Assembly: GCA_021792615.1 (NCBI GenBank)
Contig: JAJYUJ010000031.1
Location: forward strand, 1 to 31,840
Source: a bacterium
Lineage (GTDB): Bacteria; JAMCPX01
Direction: 5' to 3'
DNA: 31,840 bases
Positions within the stretch are counted from its first letter, which is position 1. Each line of letters starts with the position of its first letter. The notes below the pieces were generated by a model. The model was not told the DNA's origin. It made no database searches and worked only from the letters and a program-made list of their open reading frames with translations. Shown here piece after piece: positions 1 to 21,566 of the stretch. The position numbers and the translations under genes were made by a program.

Positions 1-111
1 TTATACCTAGTGCATCATTTTTTTATTGATTTATAAACCAAAATAAAGCTATTGTAAAGTAATAAATAGTTGGCCCAATGTGTGGCGAACGCACATTAAC
101 GAATAAATTTC

Positions 112-140
112 TTGATTTTTTATCTGCATACATGTAATCT
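112..140 (+). promoter_or_regulatory. Candidate promoter of the HEPN-SecB-like operon
   Basis: TTGATT (112-117) and TAATCT (135-140) are separated by 17 bases. A better -10 sequence, TATAAA, lies at 140-145 but has no -35 element at the usual distance. The -10 matches are weak and the region is AT-rich, so chance matches are likely. It is the best placed sigma-70-like pair before the first gene. Confidence 0.3.
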
Positions 141-166
141 ATAAAAGCGTGGACAATCCATAAATT

Positions 167-181
167 GCCTTTTCAAAAGGC
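167..181 (+). promoter_or_regulatory. Short hairpin just upstream of the HEPN gene
   Basis: GCCTTTTCAAAAGGC is a perfect inverted repeat of 7-base arms around one base (physically a 6-bp stem with a 3-base loop). It ends one base before a GGAGG (182-186) and 11 bases before the GAGGT (193-197) that sets the start at 204. It could be an operator or a translational control hairpin. There is no U-tract, so it is not a terminator. Confidence 0.4.
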
Positions 182-203
182 GGAGGATATCTGAGGTATA
201 TTA

Positions 204-566
204 ATGAATAATAAGGCATCGAAAACTTTAGATGCTGCTAATAATTTATTAAATGCACAATATATTGACTCTGCTGCAAGTCGTTTTTATTATGCAGCAT
301 ACCAAGCAGCAATTTATTGTTTAGAAAAAAGAGGCAGGCAATTTTCAGAATTCTCAATTGATGCGGAATATTGGGAGCACAGGATCATTATCAATAATGC
401 ATCCCTTTTAAGAGGCAAAGGTAAGGATGATAAAGTATTTTTAAAGAGTCTGTTTGACTTACGCGTTCAAGCAGATTATAATGTAATACCGGTGCAAGAA
501 ATAGAAGTCAGAGAGAGTGTAAAAGGAATAAAGGAATTTGTAAAAGATTTGATAGGGAAAACATAA
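204..566 (+). CDS. HEPN-domain protein, candidate toxin component
   Basis: The 120-residue all-helical protein has HEPN hallmarks: SRFYYAAYQAA (residues 26-36), matching the Ser-Arg-x-Tyr-Tyr-Ala-Ala-(Phe/Tyr)-x-Ala helix of the PF05168-type family, and Arg-Val-Gln-Ala-Asp-Tyr (87-92), matching the C-terminal Arg-x-x-Ala-Asp-Tyr motif. HEPN proteins are commonly RNases or RNA-binding partners in toxin-antitoxin and defence systems. The usual Rx4-6H catalytic His is absent: Asn93 stands where His might be expected, so RNase activity is uncertain. GAGGT at 193-197 supports the start. The stop overlaps the next start by one base (TAATG), implying coupling. No nucleotidyltransferase (MNT) partner follows, unlike classical HEPN-MNT pairs. 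The domain call is fairly secure; the toxin role is inference. Confidence 0.75.
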   Translation: MNNKASKTLDAANNLLNAQYIDSAASRFYYAAYQAAIYCLEKRGRQFSEFSIDAEYWEHRIIINNASLLRGKGKDDKVFLKSLFDLRVQADYNVIPVQEIEVRESVKGIKEFVKDLIGKT

Positions 567-1180
567 TGGACAAAATTCAAGAACTTAAAAAAGATATTGA
601 GTCAACATTTCTATTTGCGAAAGTCCTAATAGAAAAATTTAAGATCAAGGAAGATAAAAATATTGAGTATTGGTTTTATATATTAAATGTTCCTAACGAA
701 AAACTTTACACAGTTAAAAATTATGCAATAAATAATGCTATAGATTTATATGGAGATGATCCACTTCCATTTTGTGTAAGTACTGTAAATCCAGATGATA
801 CTTGTAAATATTTTAATAATGCTGTTATTCCCTCTCTTCATATTGGTTATGAAATGGTATCAGGTATTTCGGATAATATTTTGTTCCATACTTTAAATAT
901 CCCATTTAATAATGACATTGTTTATTCGTATCTCAATACTATTTATGAAATGCCATTAAACATCCCAGATGATATTTTCTTACCTCCTGTTAATGTTCAA
1001 TTTAATGAATCAGCAATTGTTGGCAATATTAGGAATGAGATCCCGTATTGGGGAAGTATGCTTTCTGTGTCACTTGAAGATTTAAGTAAAAATAAATTTG
1101 TGAGCCTGTTGCCTCAAGTTGAAGAAATCAAAAAAGAAAATGGTTTTATGCCGAGAGAAAAGGTGCTTTTAGCAGCATGA
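566..1180 (+). CDS. Unrecognised protein with Glu-Ile-Pro-Tyr-Trp motif, candidate antitoxin
   Basis: I do not recognise this 204-residue protein. It has no signal peptide, no clear membrane segment, and no helix-turn-helix or nucleotidyltransferase motif. The N-terminus is charged and helical. The middle (about 60-150) is rich in Asn, Asp, Pro and aromatic residues. Near the C-terminus, residues 158-162 read EIPYW. From memory, the chaperone-addiction (ChAD) tail of M. tuberculosis HigA1, which is bound by the SecB-like chaperone Rv1957, contains a similar Glu-Val-Pro-x-Trp motif. Being second of three genes, directly before a SecB-like gene (4-base ATGA overlap), this suggests a chaperone-dependent antitoxin. 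It could equally be the toxin, with the HEPN protein as partner. Base composition is AT-rich like its neighbours. Confidence 0.6.
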   Translation: MDKIQELKKDIESTFLFAKVLIEKFKIKEDKNIEYWFYILNVPNEKLYTVKNYAINNAIDLYGDDPLPFCVSTVNPDDTCKYFNNAVIPSLHIGYEMVSGISDNILFHTLNIPFNNDIVYSYLNTIYEMPLNIPDDIFLPPVNVQFNESAIVGNIRNEIPYWGSMLSVSLEDLSKNKFVSLLPQVEEIKKENGFMPREKVLLAA

Positions 1181-1611
1181 AGGACTTATCTAAACAGCCG
1201 GGATATAGATTTCATTATGTTCGCCTTTTGCATGCTAATTATAATTTAGATCCTTCTTTTGTTCAATTGCCCGAAAAATTCGAGAATAAATTCGATTATG
1301 GGGATTCATTTGAAAAGATTGAAAATAAGCTACTCATAAAGCAAACAGGAAAAATTAGTATATATACGGGTAATTCAGAGCAAAAGAAAGAAATACTCTC
1401 ACTTGAGGTTGTTATAGAAGGTTTATTTGAGGCAACTGGTTTAGAAAATATTGCTTCCGATGAGTTTGGTACAAAGAATGCACCTGTTATCCTATTCCCC
1501 TATTTAAGAGAAATCATATTTAGACTTACTTCAAACATGGGTACAATATCGCCCGTTTTACTTCCGCCAATCAATGTTATAGCACTCAAAGAATCAAGGG
1601 CTGCAAAATAA
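1177..1611 (+). CDS. SecB-like chaperone of a TAC-type cassette
   Basis: The 144-residue protein resembles SecB in its C-terminal half. NAPVILFPYLRE (101-112) followed by LLPPINV (128-134) matches the conserved SecB core (Leu-Phe-Pro-Tyr-x-Arg-Glu and the Pro-x-Asn segment before the last helix). Length is close to the roughly 150 residues of SecB. Export SecB is normally a solitary housekeeping gene in proteobacteria. Here it is the last gene of a three-gene AT-rich cassette and overlaps the preceding gene by four bases, as expected for a toxin-antitoxin-chaperone chaperone (known examples: Rv1957, CmdC). It likely folds or protects the upstream partner. A general export SecB role is the less likely alternative. 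The homology call is confident; the TAC role is inference. Confidence 0.8.
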   Translation: MKDLSKQPGYRFHYVRLLHANYNLDPSFVQLPEKFENKFDYGDSFEKIENKLLIKQTGKISIYTGNSEQKKEILSLEVVIEGLFEATGLENIASDEFGTKNAPVILFPYLREIIFRLTSNMGTISPVLLPPINVIALKESRAAK

Positions 1612-1614
1612 AAA

Positions 1615-4600
1615 TTAATCTGTACAATATAGTTGCTGCACCATTTTGTCTATTTGCTTTTCAAGCTCTTTCACTTTTGCCTGTTTGGTTGGATTGTGTA
1701 AATAGTCTTCGTCTTTGGTGATGGAGAGGATTTTATCGACAAGCTCAATAAATGGTTTCTGCTCGCTAATGGATATGTCCGCTATTGGCAGTTTGCGAAA
1801 ATCGTCTGGATAGAAGTAGTTTTCCAAGCGATGACGCCTGATGTTATTAAGATATTTTAATGCGAACGATGAATTGAGAACTGCCAAAAGATACTTTAAA
1901 TTAAACTTTTCAGAAAGATTTTCAAGTTCTGGGCGTAATAGACGATTGAATTTCTTAATACTCGCTTGAAGACTTTTATTGTTAATACCTTTTAAGTCGC
2001 AGAATTTAACAATCACAACAATACCATGATGCGTTAGTAAACCTTTATCATCATAAATACCTCCAGTTAAACTACCGACCATAAGTTTTGGTCTATCATA
2101 TAGTTGAGGAAAAGTTTTACGTCTAATCCTTGCTGGACAACGTGCCGTACCCCATTCAAGATATCTAATACGTTTAACAATCCAATTCTCTATGTCTTTA
2201 GCTTCTATATACTTTCGTATATGCATCTTGGTTGGAAGATCAGATAATAAATCGTCAACCTTGAATTCACCTTTTGCTGTTTTTTCGTCGGCATTAAGCA
2301 CCATGCCTACACTCATGTAGCAAATATCTCCAAGGTTAATGGTTTCTGCTTTTAAAGTAACCGCATTGTATTCCTTACGAAATGCGTTGCGACCAAGCAA
2401 TTTGAAAGCTTTTGTTGGTATCTCTGTCTTGCTTACGATATTCTCAAAGGAACTTCTATGGATGGTCTTCTTCGTTTTGCCGTAAGCATCATTTTTTCCT
2501 ATATGAAGCACCACGGGGATAACCCCTGCTTCAAACACTGCCATATCATCGAAGTATTCTATAGAATGTGTGATATATTTTTCCTGAATCAAATCAAGTA
2601 ATTTAAAGGCGTATTTAGATGTGCAGATAGCATTTGAGGTTATATAGATAAGATCACCGCTCGACTTGGAAAGTTTTAAGCCCCTTTCTATAAACGGTAC
2701 CATCAAATCCCATTTTTCATACAGCGTTTCGTATATTTTTGATTCTTCCAGTTTCTTTCTAAAGGCAAGGTGTACATCTCCCGAATCAGCACGCACATAC
2801 GGTGGATTGGCGATGACGATGTCGAAGCCGCCTTTTTCGATAAATACTTCTGCAAAATCTACATGCCATATAAAGGTTGGATATGCGCCTGTTTGAAAGT
2901 ATTGACGGCGTAAAGTTTCGATGTCGCCTTTTATCAAAATCTTTTTTTGTTGGGTAATCCGCTCTATCGCATTTTTTGCATTCGCAACCTTTATTTTCAG
3001 ATCGTTCAGTTCTTTGATCTGTCCTTCGTGTTCTTCTTTTACTTTGCGTTCTTTGGCAGTTATATTGTCTTCACCGAACAACTGTGTCTGATAGGAGGTT
3101 AATGCGGCTGTCTTGGCTGCGATAAGCCGTTCTGCAAGGTCTGCCTGCTTGGCAAGGATTTTCAATTCCAATCTATGCTTTTCTCCGGCATTACTTTCTC
3201 TAAAATATGATTGTTTGTCTGCCTGAATTGATTCTATAATCTGTTTTGTTTTTGCATCCATTGCCATTTGATCGAGGTTGATGACATGACCGAACAATCG
3301 TTCCAATAAGCTGTCACCCCGTACAATACGGTAAGACAAATTTGGCAGGCTCGGAACTTCACGTATGGCGTTATCAAATGGCTTATCGCGATCAACCTCA
3401 TAGTCTACCACAAGTGAAAGCCATAATCTCAATTCGCACAACCTGACAGCCTGTTCTTGAATGTCCACACCATAAAGGCAGGATTCGATAATCCGCTTTT
3501 TAAGATCATAATCATAATTACGCTGCCGTAATGCGTCTTCACCCTGAATACTGAGATCCAGTTTTGCAATGGCCGTAGCCATTTCATGAAGCATGCCTAC
3601 TAAAAATGCACCGGACCCAACTGCAGGGTCGCAAACCTTGCAGTTGTATATAGATTGTACAAGGCTTACTGCCTCGGCATTTGTAAAGAGACCCTGCAAC
3701 CTGTCAATTTGTTCATCATCAAGATGATCAGCCGGAGGTAACGAAACAAGTGCTTCTATCTTTTCTTTTATAGAGACTACCTTGATTTTATCCTCTCCGG
3801 CAAGCTGTGTAACCAGATATTCCTTAAACGCCTCTTGACACATGAAATGAACGATGGAACGCGGTGTGTAGTAAGAGCCGGTGAGCTTGCGAAGGTCCTT
3901 GCTTGGGTCTTTTTCGAGTTGAAGGATAAGACTCTCGAATATCTTTCCAAGCATTTCAGGGTCAATGGCAACTTCCATATCAATGGGTGTATCCTCAGCT
4001 ATGGTGAAGTTGAATTTTTCAAGAAGTTCATCGAAAATTGCTTTAAAGGTCGCATTTTTTAGGTGCAGTCTGGCTTGGTTGAGACGCTCAATTTGTGATT
4101 GTTTTTCATCCTCCTCAAATAGTCCGCCGTTCAAGAAAGGTACAGATCTAATGCTATTGGACTTTATATCGGCATTAGACAGAGAAAGAAATAATGGATA
4201 AAGCACCTCGGTATAAAAACTATTACTATCAGGAGCCCGCTTCCAATGTTCTTGAAAGTTTTCATAAAGATAACCGGGCTTTTGATTTAGCCATCCTTTT
4301 TTTTGAATGAAATAAAGAAAAAGCATTCTATCAAGCAGTAATTGGGCAAACTTTCCTGCACCATCTTTAAGACTCTGCACCTGTTCAATATCCTCTATGA
4401 CTTTATGATAAAGCGCTGCAAAGGTACTGAAAAATTCCTTCTGTACCGCCTCGACATCGAAGGCTTCGTCATGTCTTGTCTGGATATCCAGCGGTGAAAT
4501 GCCAAAGAGGTTTTGGTTGATTGATGCAAGATCAAGCATGGCGATACGCTCGGAAGCTGTGCGGAGGCGTTCTTCCTTACCTATGGTTATCCTGCGAAAC

Positions 4601-4992
4601 AACCGGCGTTTGCTGCTATTCTCATCATATTTAACATTTAGAAAATGCCATCTCTCTTGATTATTGTTAGAGAATACAAAAAGAGCATAGGGATGGGTTT
4701 GCAGAAGTTTTGATACTATGGGACGTTCTTGTCCGATGAGCAACCGGTCTGATGCCAATCTGGAATAGATAATATGGAATTCCTTGTCTGATCCCCCGGA
4801 GGCAAACAATATTGGATCTTCAGCCAGAGCTTTATTTGCTGTATCGGATAATCCATGGCGTGAAAGCGGCTCGTTGACCTGTTCGTAATTTAACTCACTC
4901 CAGAATAGTTGTTTTAAAGGCTCAAGCCCCTTCTGTATTTTCAAATCTTCAAGAATATCAAGTACTTCATTTTGTCTTTCAGGACGTGCCAT
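1615..4992 (-). CDS. Fused Type IIG-like restriction-modification adenine methyltransferase
   Basis: The 1125-residue protein is of the Eco57I/PglX-like class. In order it shows: an N-terminal region (1-150) of the type preceding such methylases; a helical domain; TGSYYTPRSIV (371-381); SAM-binding motif I CDPAVGSGAFL (454-464); YGVDIQ (507-512); a long charged coiled-coil insertion (about 575-690); and catalytic NPPY (729-732), the N6-adenine methyltransferase signature. The TaqI-like target-recognition region follows, ending in a short helix (LEKQIDKMVQQLY). The expected role is to methylate host DNA at adenine and cut or block unmethylated DNA. I see no certain PD-(D/E)xK nuclease motif, so it may act only as a methylase or with a partner outside the window. 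It converges with the SecB-like gene at a 3-base gap. No good ribosome-binding site precedes the ATG. Confidence 0.85.
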   Translation of the reverse strand: MARPERQNEVLDILEDLKIQKGLEPLKQLFWSELNYEQVNEPLSRHGLSDTANKALAEDPILFASGGSDKEFHIIYSRLASDRLLIGQERPIVSKLLQTHPYALFVFSNNNQERWHFLNVKYDENSSKRRLFRRITIGKEERLRTASERIAMLDLASINQNLFGISPLDIQTRHDEAFDVEAVQKEFFSTFAALYHKVIEDIEQVQSLKDGAGKFAQLLLDRMLFLYFIQKKGWLNQKPGYLYENFQEHWKRAPDSNSFYTEVLYPLFLSLSNADIKSNSIRSVPFLNGGLFEEDEKQSQIERLNQARLHLKNATFKAIFDELLEKFNFTIAEDTPIDMEVAIDPEMLGKIFESLILQLEKDPSKDLRKLTGSYYTPRSIVHFMCQEAFKEYLVTQLAGEDKIKVVSIKEKIEALVSLPPADHLDDEQIDRLQGLFTNAEAVSLVQSIYNCKVCDPAVGSGAFLVGMLHEMATAIAKLDLSIQGEDALRQRNYDYDLKKRIIESCLYGVDIQEQAVRLCELRLWLSLVVDYEVDRDKPFDNAIREVPSLPNLSYRIVRGDSLLERLFGHVINLDQMAMDAKTKQIIESIQADKQSYFRESNAGEKHRLELKILAKQADLAERLIAAKTAALTSYQTQLFGEDNITAKERKVKEEHEGQIKELNDLKIKVANAKNAIERITQQKKILIKGDIETLRRQYFQTGAYPTFIWHVDFAEVFIEKGGFDIVIANPPYVRADSGDVHLAFRKKLEESKIYETLYEKWDLMVPFIERGLKLSKSSGDLIYITSNAICTSKYAFKLLDLIQEKYITHSIEYFDDMAVFEAGVIPVVLHIGKNDAYGKTKKTIHRSSFENIVSKTEIPTKAFKLLGRNAFRKEYNAVTLKAETINLGDICYMSVGMVLNADEKTAKGEFKVDDLLSDLPTKMHIRKYIEAKDIENWIVKRIRYLEWGTARCPARIRRKTFPQLYDRPKLMVGSLTGGIYDDKGLLTHHGIVVIVKFCDLKGINNKSLQASIKKFNRLLRPELENLSEKFNLKYLLAVLNSSFALKYLNNIRRHRLENYFYPDDFRKLPIADISISEQKPFIELVDKILSITKDEDYLHNPTKQAKVKELEKQIDKMVQQLYCTD

Positions 4993-5127
4993 GAATCAGA
5001 TTATTACTACACTTATCCGGTAAGTTCAATACAAAGTAAGCGTCTGTAAAATCGTGACAAAAAGTTTATCGAGAAGCTTTATTGTAAACCGAAAATGCAA
5101 TGAAGAATTTTGAAGGCATTGCCGTGG

Positions 5128-7075: not shown

Positions 7076-8238
7076 TTGCTTTTATACAGATCGATTACCG
7101 TTATTTCCGGAGGTGACATGAAACGCATTGGCGGACCCCAGGTGCCTGCACCCCTGTTAACATACAGGGCGGAATTCCCGCGAAGTGGCAGATATCCCGC
7201 ATCGATGATATATGACATCTTCGTAATCAGACTGAACGGAAAAAGCTGTCCCTTGTGTGTATGTCCGGAAAGCTGGAGGTCAAAAAGCCCTTCGCACTCC
7301 TTATCTATAACAGGCCTGTGCTTGAGCAGGAGTATAAACCTGTCCTTTGGAAATCCTGACAGCAGTGCCGTCTCCGATATTTCTTTATAAACACCGAAAG
7401 GCTTACCCGCGGGATCATCAATCCCCGCAAGAGCGATGACCCCGTTTACCGTTACGCCCTCACCTCTCAGGACAACAAAGCCCGCTTTTTTTGTAAAATC
7501 CATTGCGTGCTCAATGCCTGCATAAAACTCATGGTTTCCGGTTATTGCAAACTTACCATACTTCGGATTTATTTCCCCGAGCATACCGGCAAGGCCCGTA
7601 AGTCCGTTGATCTGTCCGTCGAGGAGATCTCCGGTCGAAACCAAAATATCGGGATCCGCCTCTTTAACCTTGCCGATGATATTCCTTAATCTGCGCTTTC
7701 GTATAATTAATCCCAAATGCACATCGGAGATCTGCACGATTCTTAACCTGCTTATACCTCCCGGCAGTTTAGATGTGTTGATCGCCATCCATTCCGTATG
7801 AACGTTTTTTGCTTCAAAATATCCATAGATTGCTATCGCCACCGAGAGAATAAGCGGTACATAGAAGGATACCTTTGCGGACGGCATGAGGTTCTGGAGC
7901 GGCTCCTGGCTTAAACGGGAGATGAGGTAAACCCCAATATGATAAACATCGATTAGTAACGCGGAACAGAAGAATAAAAAGAGCGTCCCCATCCACATAT
8001 ATCCGAGATACGACAGAAATCGTGCTATGAGCGCGTAATGGTTTTTTTCGGCATAATAAACGAGGAGCGGCGATACAATCATGAGGAGCATAAACACAGC
8101 GAGCGCTCCGCCGGCACCCGCACCGAAGCCCAATGCAGCCCGGGCTTTGAAAAACACGTACACGTGTGCTGCCGTATATATCAAAAAGAAAATGGACAGG
8201 AAAATCTCCAATATGGCCTCTCTGTTTTTAATCTTCAT
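7066..8238 (-). CDS. Membrane-anchored metallophosphoesterase (YkuE/YaeI-like)
   Basis: From the ATG at 8238 the protein is 390 residues: about four N-terminal membrane segments (to about residue 140), then a calcineurin-like phosphoesterase domain. Metal-binding motifs are ISDVHLG (Asp172, His174), STGDLLDG (Asp204), TGNHEFY (Asn235, His236), a downstream LKHRP segment and LSGHTHKGQ near the C-terminus. Relatives hydrolyse phosphoesters such as UDP-sugar lipids at the membrane; the substrate here is unknown. The frame stays open to 8421, adding 61 Cys-rich residues (YPACPP, GGCAGCLTGC). I prefer the inner start because the family normally begins just before the first membrane helix, but neither start has a clear ribosome-binding site. 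It is divergent from the TonB receptor gene. Confidence 0.85.
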   Translation of the reverse strand: MKIKNREAILEIFLSIFFLIYTAAHVYVFFKARAALGFGAGAGGALAVFMLLMIVSPLLVYYAEKNHYALIARFLSYLGYMWMGTLFLFFCSALLIDVYHIGVYLISRLSQEPLQNLMPSAKVSFYVPLILSVAIAIYGYFEAKNVHTEWMAINTSKLPGGISRLRIVQISDVHLGLIIRKRRLRNIIGKVKEADPDILVSTGDLLDGQINGLTGLAGMLGEINPKYGKFAITGNHEFYAGIEHAMDFTKKAGFVVLRGEGVTVNGVIALAGIDDPAGKPFGVYKEISETALLSGFPKDRFILLLKHRPVIDKECEGLFDLQLSGHTHKGQLFPFSLITKMSYIIDAGYLPLRGNSALYVNRGAGTWGPPMRFMSPPEITVIDLYKSNRD

Positions 8239-15937: not shown

Positions 15938-16033
15938 ATGAGCGATAAGCCCGCGTCAGACAAAGGTATGATTCGAAAATCCGATAAGGAAACTTTATTG
16001 TATTTTTCGGGTCAATTGTTTGGGTGGGTTTGA
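15938..16033 (+). CDS. Possible 31-residue small protein or truncated gene start
   Basis: A near-perfect Shine-Dalgarno sequence, AAGGAGGT (15923-15930), sits seven bases before an ATG that opens a 31-codon frame. The product starts [10 protein letters not shown] and ends [10 protein letters not shown]. The ribosome-binding site is better than those of most neighbours. The frame runs 22 bases into the 3' end of lon on the opposite strand. I do not recognise the peptide. It is either a real small protein co-transcribed with the TPR gene, or the remnant of a longer gene cut off at this junction. An 11-base inverted repeat, ACCCGAAAAAT at 15899-15909 and its complement at 16002-16012, flanks it, which is near chance expectation. 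Confidence 0.35.
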
Positions 16034-18447
16034 TCGGAAGACACGGGCATACCGCTTACCTGCGGGATATCGCGTACATGGGTCTCTGTATCGTACCTGC
16101 CCTTCCATATCTGCTCAAGCGAATCTACCCGCAAAGCCTTTTCTATAACCTGGTCCATATTTTCGACAAACGTAATGCTCAGTGCCTTTTTTATCACGTC
16201 CGGTATTTCCGCAATATCTTTCTCGTTGTCTTTCGGTATCAGCACCTCTTTTATCTGTGCCCGCATGGATGCCATAAGTTTTTCTTTTAATCCCCCTATA
16301 GGGAGTACCCTGCCTCTCAAGGTTATTTCACCGGTCATGGCAAGATCACGTTTTACGGGGATCCTCGTCAAAGCAGAAACAAGCGACGTTGCTATCGTGA
16401 TGCCCGCAGACGGACCGTCCTTGGGGATTGCACCCTCGGGTATATGGATATGCACATCTATTCTCTTGTAAAAATCCTTTTTAAGGCCGAGGGACGATGC
16501 TATCGTCCGTACGTAGCTCATGGCTGCGCTTGCAGACTCTTTCATAATATCACCTAACTTGCCGGTAACGGTCAACTTGCCTTTACCGTTCAGTACCGCG
16601 GATTCTATTGCGAGTATATCCCCCCCTGCTTCTGTCCATGCAAGGCCCGTGGCAACACCAACAAGATCGCGTTCCTCGAGTTCGCTCCTCTTGAATCTCG
16701 CCACGCCAAGATACTTTGCAAGATTCGAACTCCGTATAACGACTTTCTTATTTTTTTCTCCGCTTTTCAGTATGTGTTTTGCTACCTTCCTGAGTATGGT
16801 TGCAATCTCCCGCTCTACATTCCGTACGCCTGCTTCCCGGGTGTAATCCCGTATAATGTTGGCAATAGCTCCTTTTGTGAATTCGAGCTTTTCCGGTACA
16901 AGGCCGTTCGCTTTCAATTGCTTCGGAATAAGAAATTTTTTGGCGATATTGAGTTTTTCTACCTCTATATATCCCGGCAGCCGTATTATCTCCAGACGAT
17001 CCAGCAATGCCGGAGGTATCCCTGCCACCGTATTGGCGGTTGTAATGAACATGACCTTCGAAAGATCATAATCGAGATCGAGATAGTGATCGTTAAAAGC
17101 ATGGTTCTGCTCGGGATCCAGAACCTCTAAAAGGGCTGCGGACGGATCTCCCCGGAAGTCCATGCTCATCTTGTCTATCTCATCGAAAAGGAAGACCGGA
17201 TTCGATGTCCCTGCCTTTCGCATGGATTGAATAATCTTGCCCGGGAGGGCGCTTACATAGGTCCTCCTGTGTCCGCGAATCTCCGCTTCATCCCGTACGC
17301 CGCCGAGTGACTGCCGGACAAAATTCCTTCCCGTCGCCTCGGCTATGGACTTCGCAAGGGACGTCTTTCCCACACCCGGAGGGCCTACAAAGCACAGGAT
17401 GGGCCCTTTCGCGTCGGGACTCAGCGCTTTAACGGCAAGGAACTCGAGAATCCGCTCTTTGATCTGTTCAAGCCCGTAATGATCCCTGTCCAGGACTTTC
17501 TTCGCCTCATTTATGTCTTTTTTCTCATCCGAGTATTCATACCAGGGAAGGGAAAGAATCCATTCAAGATACCCGCGTACGACAGCAGCCTCGGCACTCA
17601 TCGGTGACATCATTTTCAGCTTCTTCAGCTCACCCTTGCAGCGCTTACCCGCCTCATCGGACATCTTTTTCTTCTTGATGCGTTCTTCGAGTTCTTTTAT
17701 CTCTGTTTTAAATTCGTCTTTTTCTCCAAGCTCTTTTTGTATGGCTCTCATCTGCTCGTTCAAATAATATTCTTTCTGAGCCTTCTCTGTCTGCTTCTTT
17801 ACCTGAGCCTTTATTCTTTTTTCGATATCGATTATTTCTATCTCGCCGAAAAGTCTTTCCATCAGTCTGGTCATAAACTTTTCGAGGTCCTCTATCTCCA
17901 TCAATGCCTGCTTTTCTTCCGCTTTCAGTTTGATGCTGCCGGCAATCGTATTCGCAACTATCTCGGCACTATCCACCGAAGAAATATAGGTTACGATTTC
18001 CGGGGCGATAAGATTGGTGTTTTTTGCGTAATCGGTAAATACCGACACCAGTTGTCTTTTTAATGCCTCGACTCCAGGCGTATTATTTAAAAGATCCCCG
18101 AGAGGACTGACCTCGACTTCCACATACAAATCCTCATCACGGTAAGAAAGGATCTTCCCCCGCTTCACTCCCTTTACCAGCAGTTTTATGCTGTCACTTT
18201 CAACGATATGGTGTTCTATGGATGAAAGCGTACCCGTTATCTGAATATCGTTCTCTTTCGGATCCTCAACTTTAGGATCCTTCTGCATGGTCGTAAAGAT
18301 CAGTGAATTGTTTTTTATGGCTTCTTTTACCGCATTGACGGATTTCGATCTGCCGACAATGAGCGGCGTCGTCTGATGAGGGAAAACAACGATATCTCTC
18401 AGTGGTAATAAGGGGACTCTGAAGTTGTCATTGCTGCCGCCGGTCAT
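16012..18447 (-). CDS. lon: ATP-dependent protease Lon
   Basis: The 811-residue protein has the full LonA architecture: N-terminal substrate-binding domain (about 10-200), coiled coil (about 205-265), AAA+ module with Walker A GPPGVGKT (355-362) and Walker B FLFDEID (419-425), and protease domain with catalytic Ser680 in KDGPSAG and Lys721 in GGLKEK. It degrades misfolded and short-lived regulatory proteins in the cytosol. It is the last gene of the tig-clpP-clpX-lon operon; its ATG overlaps the clpX stop by four bases (ATGA). The C-terminal tail after about 780 is polar and probably disordered. Confidence 0.98.
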
Positions 18448-19703
18448 TTCGTTCCACCTGCCTCCGCCTTCTTTTCATACGTAAGCAACGGTTCGCTCTG
18501 TTTAAATATCACGTCAGAATTAATGATACACTCGGTAATATCGCTCCGTGAAGGTATGTCATACATAATGTCGAGCATGATATTTTCCATGATTGCCCTC
18601 AACCCGCGCGCGCCCGATTTTCTTCTGATGGCCTCTTTTGCTATCGACTCTATTGCATCATGGCTGAACACCAGTTTTACACCTTCCATGGAGAACAGCT
18701 TCTGATACTGTTTGATGATTGCATTCCTCGGTTTTACCAGTATCTCCATCAACGCCTGGGCAGTCAGCTCTTCCATGGTGGCGACAATCGGCACCCTGCC
18801 GATGAATTCGGGGATCATACCGTATTTTATAAGGTCTTCCGTCTCTACCATTCCAAGAATATCGGTCAGGCTCTTTCCCCTGACCCCTTTCAGGTCCGCA
18901 CCGAACCCCATGGATTTTACACCGATCCGCTTTGAGATGATCTTTTCGATACCGTCGAACGTACCGCCGCATATAAATAAAATGTTTGAGGTATCTACCC
19001 TGAAATAATCCTGTTCGGGATGTTTTCTTCCGCCCTTGGGTGGAACATTGGCTATTGTACCTTCTATGATTTTCAGAAGTGCCTGCTGCACACCTTCTCC
19101 CGACACATCCCTGGTTATCGAAGGACTGTCTGTTTTCCTTGAAAGCTTGTCTATCTCGTCTATGTAAACGATGCCTCTCTGTGCTTTATTGATATCGTAA
19201 TTTGCATTCTGTATAAGACTCAGCACGATGTTTTCGACATCCTCCCCGACATATCCCGCTTCCGTCAGAGTTGTTGCATCGGCAATGGTAAACGGCACAT
19301 CAAGAAACTTCGCAAGCGTCTGGGCAAGCAGCGTTTTCCCCGTACCGGTCGGGCCCAGAAGCAGAATATTGCTCTTTTGGATCTCCACGTCATCGTTCTT
19401 CTGATGCGAATCTATCCGTTTATAATGGTTGTGAACAGCTACGGATATTATCTTCTTTGCCTTTTCCTGACCTATGACATACCGGTCAAGGAATGCTTTT
19501 ATCTCTCCGGGTTTTGGAACGGCCTTCCGTATGCCCAGGGTGTCCTGCTGGGTTTCGTAGTCTTCCGCGATTATCTCATTGCACAGTTCCACACATTCAT
19601 CGCATATAAAAGCATTCGGACCTGCAATAAGTTTTTTAACCTCTTTCTGCGTCTTGCCGCAGAAAGAGCATTTCAATACGCTTTCGTCTTTTTTAAGAAC
19701 CAA
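18444..19703 (-). CDS. clpX: ClpX, ATPase subunit of ClpXP protease
   Basis: The 419-residue AAA+ unfoldase has an N-terminal zinc-binding domain with Cys12, Cys15, Cys34 and Cys37 and Walker A GPTGTGKT (117-124). It also has Walker B ([10 protein letters not shown]), the YVGEDVE pore loop, and an IGF-type ClpP-contacting loop that reads Ile-Gly-Val here ([11 protein letters not shown]). It selects, unfolds and feeds substrates into ClpP. The start codon is TTG: no in-frame ATG lies before the zinc finger, and GGAGGT seven bases upstream supports it. It overlaps the end of clpP by 11 bases and lon by 4, indicating one operon with coupled translation. Confidence 0.98.
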
Positions 19704-20313
19704 TGCTCTTACCTCCGCCTATTTTCAATTCTTCCCGTTTTGTTATCACGCTGTCTATTATACCATAGGATATCGCATCTTCGCCACCCATGAAGAAATC
19801 CCTCTCGGTATCCGAGGCTATTCTCTCCAGAGGTTGTCCGGTGTGCGCACTTAAAATCTTGTTTATTTCTTCCCTCAGCTTAAGGATTTCTTTGGCATGT
19901 ATGTCGATCTCCGACGCCTTGCCCTGGAGCCCGCCCGATGGTTGATGGATCATAATCCTCGCATTCGGCAGGGCGAACCTTTTACCCTTGACGCCCGCAG
20001 AGAGAAGAACAGCTCCCATACTGGCCGCCTGACCTATGCACATCGTCGTGATATTGGAACGTATGTACTGCATGGTATCGTATATTGCCAGTCCTGCGGT
20101 CACGACGCCGCCGGGTGAATTTATGTACAACTGTATGTCCTTATCCGGATCCTCGGATTCGAGGAACAAAAGCTGTGCAATGACTATATTCGCAAGTTCA
20201 TCGTCGATGGCAGACCCGATAAAAACGATTCGCTCTTTTAGCAGGCGGGAATATATGTCGTATGCTCTTTCACCCTTCGATGTCTGTTCTACAACCATAG
20301 GTATAAGCATCAT
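19693..20313 (-). CDS. clpP: ClpP, proteolytic subunit of Clp protease
   Basis: The 206-residue serine peptidase shows the catalytic triad: Ser98 in [11 protein letters not shown], His123 in MIHQPSGG and Asp172 in TERDFFM. YINSPGG (63-69) forms the oxyanion region. It assembles as a double heptamer and works with ClpX from the next gene. The start overlaps the trigger-factor stop (AAATGATG); the second ATG is equally possible. The ribosome-binding site AGAAGGAG lies inside tig. Confidence 0.98.
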
Positions 20314-21566
20314 TTCTCCTTCTTCTCCTCTATAAGTTGAGCATTTTTCATGATCAAATCAAGAACCTTCTCATTCACCAGGTGCTGTTTGATCGTCTCC
20401 ATGCTGTTGTCTTTATTCAATTTTTCCGTTATATGCTCGGGAGTCTCGTTGTTGTGGTACGCTATATGCGCAATCTCGGATTTCAATTCGTCATCGGTAA
20501 GGGCTACGTTTTCCTGCTTTCCGATTGCATCAAAATATATCCTCGTCATCAGCCCTATACGTATATAGGTATCGATCTGTTTTAACCTTTCCTCTATCTC
20601 CTGTTTATTGTTCATGGCATATGCCCTCTTCAGCTCTTCATCTTCAGTGGCTATGTGTTCCAGCTCTTTCTTTACGAGAGATCCCGGCAATTCCAGGGGG
20701 TGCCTTTGCAGCAAGGCCGCAACGATCATATCCTGATACATAAGCCTGTTGATCCTTTCTATCTCTTCTTCTATATCCTTTTTTAAAGCGGATTTCAACT
20801 CATCCAGCGAATTATAGGTGCCGCTTGTTTTTGCCAGTTCATCGTCTATGGGAGGATATTTGATATACTTTATAGCTTTCAATTCTATCATGAAATGCAC
20901 ATTCTTTGCTGCATCTACCGTGACCTTCCTTTTCTCACCGGGCAGCATACCGATTATCTGGTCGTAGAATTTCTTTCCCAGTTTTTCGTTCACCGCCCAC
21001 AAAAGGTCGTCATTGACTTTCCCGGCTTTGCCCTGCTTGTCAAGTTCCGTCAATTTAACAGAAGCCAGGTCGTTCTCGCGTAAAGGCCTTTGCTCTTCCA
21101 GCGGCATCAAAACACCGAGCCGTTTCTGAATCTTGGCCAGGGCTTCCTGCACCTGTTCTTCCGTTACCTCCGGGGCCGGGAGCTTCTTCAACTCTATGGC
21201 TTTGAAATCTACCTTCTCCAACTCCGGGATATTCTCGACCACAACCGTGTACGTAAGGTCGCCGTCACCCGTATAATCAATTTTTTCGATTACCGGTGAT
21301 CCGATAGCCTTTATATGCGACTCCTCTATCGCACTGTTGATCGTATGGTCTATCACCTCAAGCTCCGCCTCATATTTTATATCGTTTTCAAACTTGCTCT
21401 TTATGACAGATTCCGGGACCTTGCCCTTCCTGAACCCCGGGACCTTCGCACTCTTCTGAAATTCTGCAATCTTGTGGGATATGGTATCCTGCACAAAGTC
21501 CTTTGGTACCATGACCGATACCTTTTTCTTTACACTGCTCTGAGTTTCCACGCCTAAAATCTTCAT
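20310..21566 (-). CDS. tig: Trigger factor, ribosome-associated chaperone
   Basis: The 418-residue protein has the ribosome-binding signature GFRKGKVP (44-51), a middle FKBP-like domain (about 160-232) and a helical C-terminal chaperone domain. It binds nascent chains at the ribosomal tunnel exit. The FKBP-like part looks shortened: [13 protein letters not shown] is followed almost directly by [10 protein letters not shown], without the usual Phe-Pro-x-x-Tyr and Leu-Ala-Gly-Lys segment, so prolyl isomerase activity may be reduced. AGGAAGGT precedes the ATG. It lies 25 bases after tRNA-Leu on the same strand and probably shares its promoter. Confidence 0.96.

Follow-up and report, generated by a model that had tools for sequence, protein, structure and literature searches.

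Toxin-antitoxin-chaperone (TAC) systems described so far have RelE/HigB, MqsR, HicA, or an ADP-ribosyltransferase as their toxin, and the known SecB-linked antitoxins are HigA, MqsA, and HicB (Bordes et al., PMC5105189), with CmdTAC added later. Here we describe a three-gene operon near the left end of a 31,840-nt stretch of bacterial DNA (the window; contig JAJYUJ010000031.1 of assembly GCA_021792615.1, lineage JAMCPX01) that encodes a HEPN-domain protein, a middle protein hereafter called X, and a SecB-like chaperone, and that probably constitutes a TAC system with a HEPN RNase as toxin, X as antitoxin, and the SecB-like chaperone as gate. A HEPN-based TAC had been put forward in the original prediction, which was made from the letters of the window, and as a candidate it is now supported at the level of sequence by the gene layout, by recurrence of the arrangement in three phyla, by a predicted degron common to the X proteins of the triads, and by a chaperone-free paralogue of one of them. 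The three open reading frames (ORFs) each start with ATG on the plus strand and overlap by 1 nt between HEPN and X (TAATG) and by 4 nt between X and the SecB-like gene (ATGA; Table 1), giving the TAC layout of three neighbouring genes in one direction, the last of which encodes a SecB-family chaperone. The GC content is 29.6% at 1-1000 and 34.5% at 1001-2000 versus 43-54% over most of the remaining window, in agreement with the earlier description of three overlapping, AT-rich genes.

Among described systems, CmdTAC (PD-T4-9; PMC9519451, PMC11618068) resembles the operon in its toxin-antitoxin-SecB order, in a chaperone that matches the CmdC model, in a non-helix-turn-helix antitoxin ending in LAA, and in having antitoxins that are highly variable in sequence, but CmdT is an ADP-ribosyltransferase whereas the toxin here is a HEPN protein, and X shows no detectable resemblance to any known family. 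The HigBA-, MqsRA-, and HicAB-type TACs, including HigB1-HigA1-Rv1957 of Mycobacterium tuberculosis (PMC5105189, PMC6377645), likewise carry a SecB-like third gene and an antitoxin with a C-terminal chaperone-addiction region, for which X has a candidate and whose gain or loss converts two- and three-gene forms; they differ in that their toxins are RelE/HigB, MqsR, or HicA and their antitoxins belong to known families. The type VII HEPN-MNT system (HepT-MntA; PMC7641770, PMC11586414) shares the toxin superfamily, the MNT-associated PF05168 class, and, in common with AMPylated toxins, a Tyr next to the motif of the active site. Unlike that system, X is without a nucleotidyltransferase motif, the toxin gene of the window comes first rather than second, and a SecB-like chaperone is present. 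A search of 5.39 million open papers for HEPN with SecB or TAC found no HEPN-TAC, and PADLOC 2023 has no model for one; as far as the searched open literature shows, a HEPN-containing TAC is undescribed, as the original prediction had supposed.

A HEPN protein and a TAC-type chaperone flank X

Gene 1 scored 34.6 bits against the Pfam HEPN family (cut-off 22), confirming that a HEPN protein occupies the toxin position, and gave no match to PADLOC PD-T4-9_A; hence it is not a CmdT-type ADP-ribosyltransferase. Alignment of six HEPNs from the loci described below revealed no variation at Y29, Y30, R87, D91, and Y92 (numbered as in the window), while a His near H59 is found in all six at a position that shifts in the alignment. 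In the HEPN-T variant (Anantharaman et al. 2013, PMC3710099), of which AF0298 (2hsb) is the type example, Asp replaces the His of the active-site motif, and the active site can be completed by a conserved His upstream. Members of this family have in several cases been noted to cluster with restriction-modification operons (PMC3710099). The window protein holds the corresponding residues H59, R87, and D91, and a profile of the triad HEPNs matches 2hsb at E 0.0023. On these grounds we assign it to the HEPN-T variant of the MNT-associated PF05168 class and predict that it is an RNase. Of the HEPNs from other genomes, those of L040 and L051 score above the Pfam cut-off and those of L045 and L049 below it, and the first protein of L033 has no Pfam match, yet carries the conserved residues in the same order as the others. 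No HEPN was found in the viral contigs searched.

The third gene bears out the original description of a cassette ending in a SecB-like chaperone, as it matches both SecB (PF02556, above cut-off) and PD-T4-9_C, the PADLOC model of CmdC, while scoring far below the cut-off of the NCBIfam models for export SecB. A profile of the triad SecBs matches SecB structures at E 1e-10 and the M. tuberculosis TAC chaperone Rv1957 (5mtw) at E 1e-4, consistent with the gene 3 product being related to TAC chaperones and not only to export SecB.

Recurrence of the triad and the C-terminus of X

As X evolves fast, the chaperone family rather than X was surveyed, and the genes preceding each SecB were read in 386 diverse genomes, in 288 genomes around G342 (overlapping the first set), and in 50 genomes of the phylum of G382. 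This yielded 27 SecB loci, six of which, from three phyla, are HEPN-X-SecB: the window (G000), G008, G342 (L033), G426 (L051), G253 (L040), and G380 (L045). They comprise the window, a 97% copy, and four divergent triads, with five distinct X proteins, and in all six SecB lies directly 3' of X, overlapping it or 2-14 nt away. The remaining loci begin, like CmdTAC, with an ADP-ribosyltransferase-like gene (four; L038, L046, L103, and L104, with L046 a fragment), are of the MqsRA type (three; L031, L037, and L085), the HigBA type (three; L034, L042, and L044), or the HicAB type (two; L041 and L043), or have no recognised toxin-antitoxin pair (nine); these non-HEPN types were called by reading the sequences, profiles having checked HEPN, SecB, and some CmdT calls only. 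Within this sample, HEPN-TACs thus occur roughly as often as the TAC types already described. The co-conserved triads that the original prediction had proposed to look for are the copy in G008 and the four divergent ones, and the finding it named as contrary, homologues of the middle gene that never neighbour HEPN or SecB genes, did not occur. The one homologue of the window X sits in the same triad, the X proteins of L033/L051 and of L040/L045/L049 always adjoin a HEPN, and SecB also adjoins X in four of these five loci. A profile of the L040/L045/L049 X proteins found no clear relative outside a HEPN neighbourhood.

X itself matched nothing in Pfam or PADLOC at E<=1, its NCBIfam matches were at chance level, and no solved structure proved related to it. 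The earlier view of an unrecognised middle protein in place of a helix-turn-helix antitoxin therefore stands as to the missing family match; the missing helix-turn-helix is not distinctive, as CmdA, built of two helices at the N-terminus and a tail that lacks structure, has no such motif either (PMC11618068). Searches of plasmids, phages, IMG/VR, and the 386 diverse genomes returned noise-level matches only, bar the 97% copy in G008, and a scan of species genomes likewise returned the G008 copy alone. Weak matches L009-L026 were rejected as homologues, since tblastn finds no window-type HEPN or SecB near any of them. By sequence, the X proteins form three families, namely that of the window, L033 with L051, and L040 with L045 and L049. 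Pairwise shuffling did not support uniting them, 535-898 of 1000 shuffles being equally good for the window versus the others and 10 of 1000 for L033 versus L045.

What the three families have in common is their position, an [LV]AA ending, and aromatic residues in the tail. The window X ends in LLAA, and the four divergent triad X proteins end in AVAA, WVAA, SLAA, and RLAA; in the background, 11 of 295 ORFs end in AA, the X proteins themselves counted in. ClpXP recognises the C-terminal LAA of CmdA, and other TAC antitoxins carry such a sequence too (PMC11618068); we accordingly predict that the LAA of X is a ClpXP degron. As a separate observation, two ordinary MNT-like nucleotidyltransferases (L082 and L083) end in YAA and YVAA, so that AA endings may be common among MNT antitoxins too.

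Genome G253 carries, besides its triad L040, whose X has 234 aa and ends in SLAA, a separate SecB-less HEPN-X pair (L049/L098; G253:C134). The X of this pair has 111 aa and aligns to the first 110 residues of the L040 X with 51% identity, lacking both tail and degron. In HigA, MqsA, and HicB, gain of a C-terminal tail has been shown experimentally to make the antitoxin chaperone-dependent (PMC5105189). The contrast between L040 and L049 has the same pattern in sequence and is as the prediction of chaperone addiction would have it. If the reading holds, G253 would be a natural experiment in which the origin of chaperone addiction is directly testable.

For the window X, AlphaFold2 on a two-sequence alignment gave a poor model of the full protein with a fold only in the first 75 residues, while residues 1-80 alone, modelled from the single sequence, reached a predicted local distance difference test (pLDDT) score of 80 and a predicted template modelling score of 0.70, with elements in the order alpha-beta-beta-alpha-beta. 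Within the tail, E158-I-P-Y-W162 resembles the E-V-P-T-W of the M. tuberculosis HigA1 chaperone-addiction region, whose start was taken from PMC5105189; this resemblance of five residues was not used for membership.

Several further observations concern other chaperone loci. In L103 (1067-1405) and L005 (2394-2687), short antitoxins resembling CmdA, with the endings GDLAA and PLAAS, lie between an ADP-ribosyltransferase-like gene and SecB and are further CmdTAC-like members, and the ORF in the antitoxin position between such genes in L038 (797-1204) ends in WVA; TAC antitoxin endings in the survey vary, with GQAA, PLAA, EVA, and GVA among them. In L030 (G104) and L032 (G242), no toxin-antitoxin pair is present and the SecB-like gene lies directly 3' of a gene for a GCD14/TrmI-like tRNA methyltransferase; the two SecBs form one clade, possibly a specialised SecB.

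Proposed mechanism and competing explanations

In CmdTAC, newly made T4 capsid protein triggers the system by taking the chaperone away (PMC11618068). From CmdTAC, the M. tuberculosis TAC, and HEPN biochemistry we infer toxicity, chaperone dependence, ClpXP turnover, and triggering by phage for the operon as follows. X would bind HEPN and block it, and would itself be unstable through its C-terminal tail and LAA degron, persisting for as long as its tail is held by the SecB-like chaperone and no longer. A competing client, most plausibly a phage protein newly made in large amounts, would occupy the chaperone, whereupon X would be released to ClpXP and degraded. The freed HEPN RNase would halt translation or kill the infected cell, probably as a phage defence. 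The genes for Lon, ClpX, ClpP, and trigger factor (tig) are lined up on the window's minus strand (16012-21566; clpP/clpX at 18444-20313), so the host has the protease that this mechanism calls for.

A complex closer to that of CmdTAC, in which X folds or delivers HEPN, the toxic unit is HEPN after X has been cleared, and SecB is chiefly a phage sensor, would share the T-A-C order and LAA ending and has a precedent in CmdT, which is not very toxic alone, is toxic together with CmdA, and is folded by CmdA (PMC11445053, PMC11618068). The toxin families are unrelated, however, and the HEPN of HEPN-MNT folds and acts without its antitoxin (PMC7641770, PMC11586414), and we consider such a complex rather unlikely. 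We are similarly doubtful of a derivation from HEPN-MNT, whereby the N-terminal domain of X is a degenerate MNT that inhibits by binding rather than AMPylation and has acquired a chaperone-addiction tail. The class of the window HEPN and its Tyr beside the active site agree with such a history, as do the predicted alpha-beta-beta-alpha-beta order of X residues 1-80 and the MNT or other nucleotidyltransferase structures among the matches (7ae9 at rank 6; 8xeo at Z 5.8; 1ylq at Z 6.5 over 79 residues). These tie, however, with many unrelated folds (Foldseek E >0.03, Z <8), the matches including BolA, ZnT, acyl-CoA ligase domains, and ribosomal proteins as well as nucleotidyltransferases, none above Z 7.2. 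Profile comparison of X with MNT sequences gave no signal, and X lacks the GSX10DXD motif that is needed for AMPylation (PMC11586414), which makes neutralisation by binding more likely and led us to reject X as a plain nucleotidyltransferase. X may thus derive from a dead MNT. The broader proposal that HEPN-TACs are a widespread chaperone-sensing immune system descended from HEPN-MNT, the antitoxin having given up catalysis for inhibition by binding and acquired a tail that depends on SecB, so that it now acts as a phage-protein sensor releasing the HEPN RNase, strikes us as quite unlikely.

That HEPN-X is a two-gene toxin-antitoxin module and SecB an unrelated one serving elsewhere, brought together by chance in a defence island, might be suggested by the SecB-less pair L049. 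As SecB directly follows X in six loci from three phyla, and the SecB-less X is the one without tail and degron, we hold a chance arrangement to be very improbable. HEPN as an antitoxin is the role first proposed for MNT-HEPN, and a reversal of roles here, with X toxic and HEPN the antitoxin, could draw on the missing Rx4-6H of the HEPN and on the lack of any family match for X. It is hardly credible given that X bears the ending of an unstable antitoxin, that TAC order is toxin-antitoxin-chaperone, and that the broken gene in G008 is HEPN with X intact.

Several points weigh against the preferred reading of the operon as a HEPN-X-SecB TAC. The window HEPN is missing the canonical Rx4-6H, as R87-V-Q-A-D91-Y92-N-V contains no His, although the motif is absent from some recognised HEPN families and so is not a requirement (PMC3710099). 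The window X is called an antitoxin by position and ending and not by homology, because the X families have no mutual pairwise similarity. Its tail is predicted to be disordered from the pLDDT below 50 of residues 66-204 in the low-confidence, two-sequence AlphaFold2 model, and the absence of the C-terminal extension from a chaperone-free relative holds for the L040/L049 family, the window X having no such relative. In a tree of 22 SecB proteins, L033/L051 and L040/L045 form strongly supported groups, and the window SecB is placed weakly with HicAB-type chaperones (80/71). This tree does not join the HEPN-TAC chaperones, at least two changes being required on long branches, and so lends no support to a single origin; HEPN-TACs may have been put together on more than one occasion. 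Finally, an observation that counts on both sides is that the reading frame of the HEPN gene in the G008 copy (L027 5632-6000) is broken by a 7-bp tandem duplication just past R87-x3-D-Y, with X and SecB intact, although the contig has a coverage of 2.97x and the disruption needs confirming.

A HEPN toxin in three phyla would, if the reading is correct, bring one of the commonest RNase folds of bacterial immunity into chaperone-gated systems, and the SecB/degron gate would then be a plug-in module serving unrelated toxins.

Locus features, neighbouring genes and the copy in G008

Table 1. Features of the operon and the adjoining gene, in window coordinates.
Feature	Coordinates	Strand	Evidence or remark
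Operon upstream region	1..203	+	Shine-Dalgarno-like GAGG at 193-196; ~92-94% identity with L027
HEPN-domain protein, predicted RNase toxin, 120 aa	204..566	+	PF05168 E 2.4e-8
Protein X, predicted antitoxin, 204 aa	566..1180	+	No known family; Ka/Ks 0.22 versus L027 copy
X N-terminal domain, residues 1-80	566..805	+	Predicted alpha-beta-beta-alpha-beta (AlphaFold2, single sequence)
X C-terminal tail, residues 81-204, candidate chaperone-addiction region	806..1177	+	Predicted poorly ordered, low-confidence AlphaFold2 model
X tail E158-I-P-Y-W162	1037..1051	+	Sequence; lead only
X C-terminal L-A-A, predicted ClpXP degron	1169..1177	+	Sequence; [LV]AA ending common to 5/5 distinct triad X
SecB-like chaperone, 144 aa	1177..1611	+	PF02556 E 3.9e-9; PADLOC PD-T4-9_C E 5e-10
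Type IIG restriction-methylase, convergent with triad, outside proposed TAC	1615..4992	-	Eco57I PF07669 E 5.5e-29; PADLOC REase_MTase_IIG E 6e-60

The window is the entire contig, end to end, and its left edge cuts off the view of genes upstream of the operon. The restriction-modification gene noted earlier beside the operon is a type IIG enzyme. An RNA element scan of the window returned a single tRNA and nothing else. Elsewhere, a type IIG enzyme (PADLOC E 8e-103) adjoins the SecB-less pair of G253 (L049), a C5 methylase (PF00145 E 2e-99) lies two genes upstream of the G426 triad, and to the left of the G008 triad (L099 3667-12658) are defence-like genes, namely those for a PLD-SNF2 helicase, two AAA_15/AAA_21 ATPases, and an SDH-type serine protease, of which the helicase and ATPases match defence models. 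No defence gene was recognised around the triads of G342, G253 (L040), and G380 within the stretches read.

The phylum of the window was represented by nine genomes, among them the metagenome-assembled G008, of a different genus, in which triad and IIG gene keep the order they have in the window (L027). Collinearity between the two loci extends from the left contig end as far as window position 5038, where it gives way to unrelated sequence. Within the triad they are 96-99% identical in nucleotides (Ks 0.03-0.06), far below the divergence of the adjacent IIG gene (Ks 0.40) and of the housekeeping protein Lon (78% aa identity), and the triad has therefore, by this comparison, spread horizontally and recently between the two genera. 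Ka/Ks between the copies, calculated from few changes, is 0.22 for X (13 changes), 0.38 for SecB (7 changes), and 0.56 for HEPN over its first 95 codons. In the adjoining IIG gene, the target-specificity part (TRD; window 2000-2360 versus L027 ~7430-7790) is ~52-67% identical in nucleotides and its flanks ~81-98%, suggesting a likely TRD swap.
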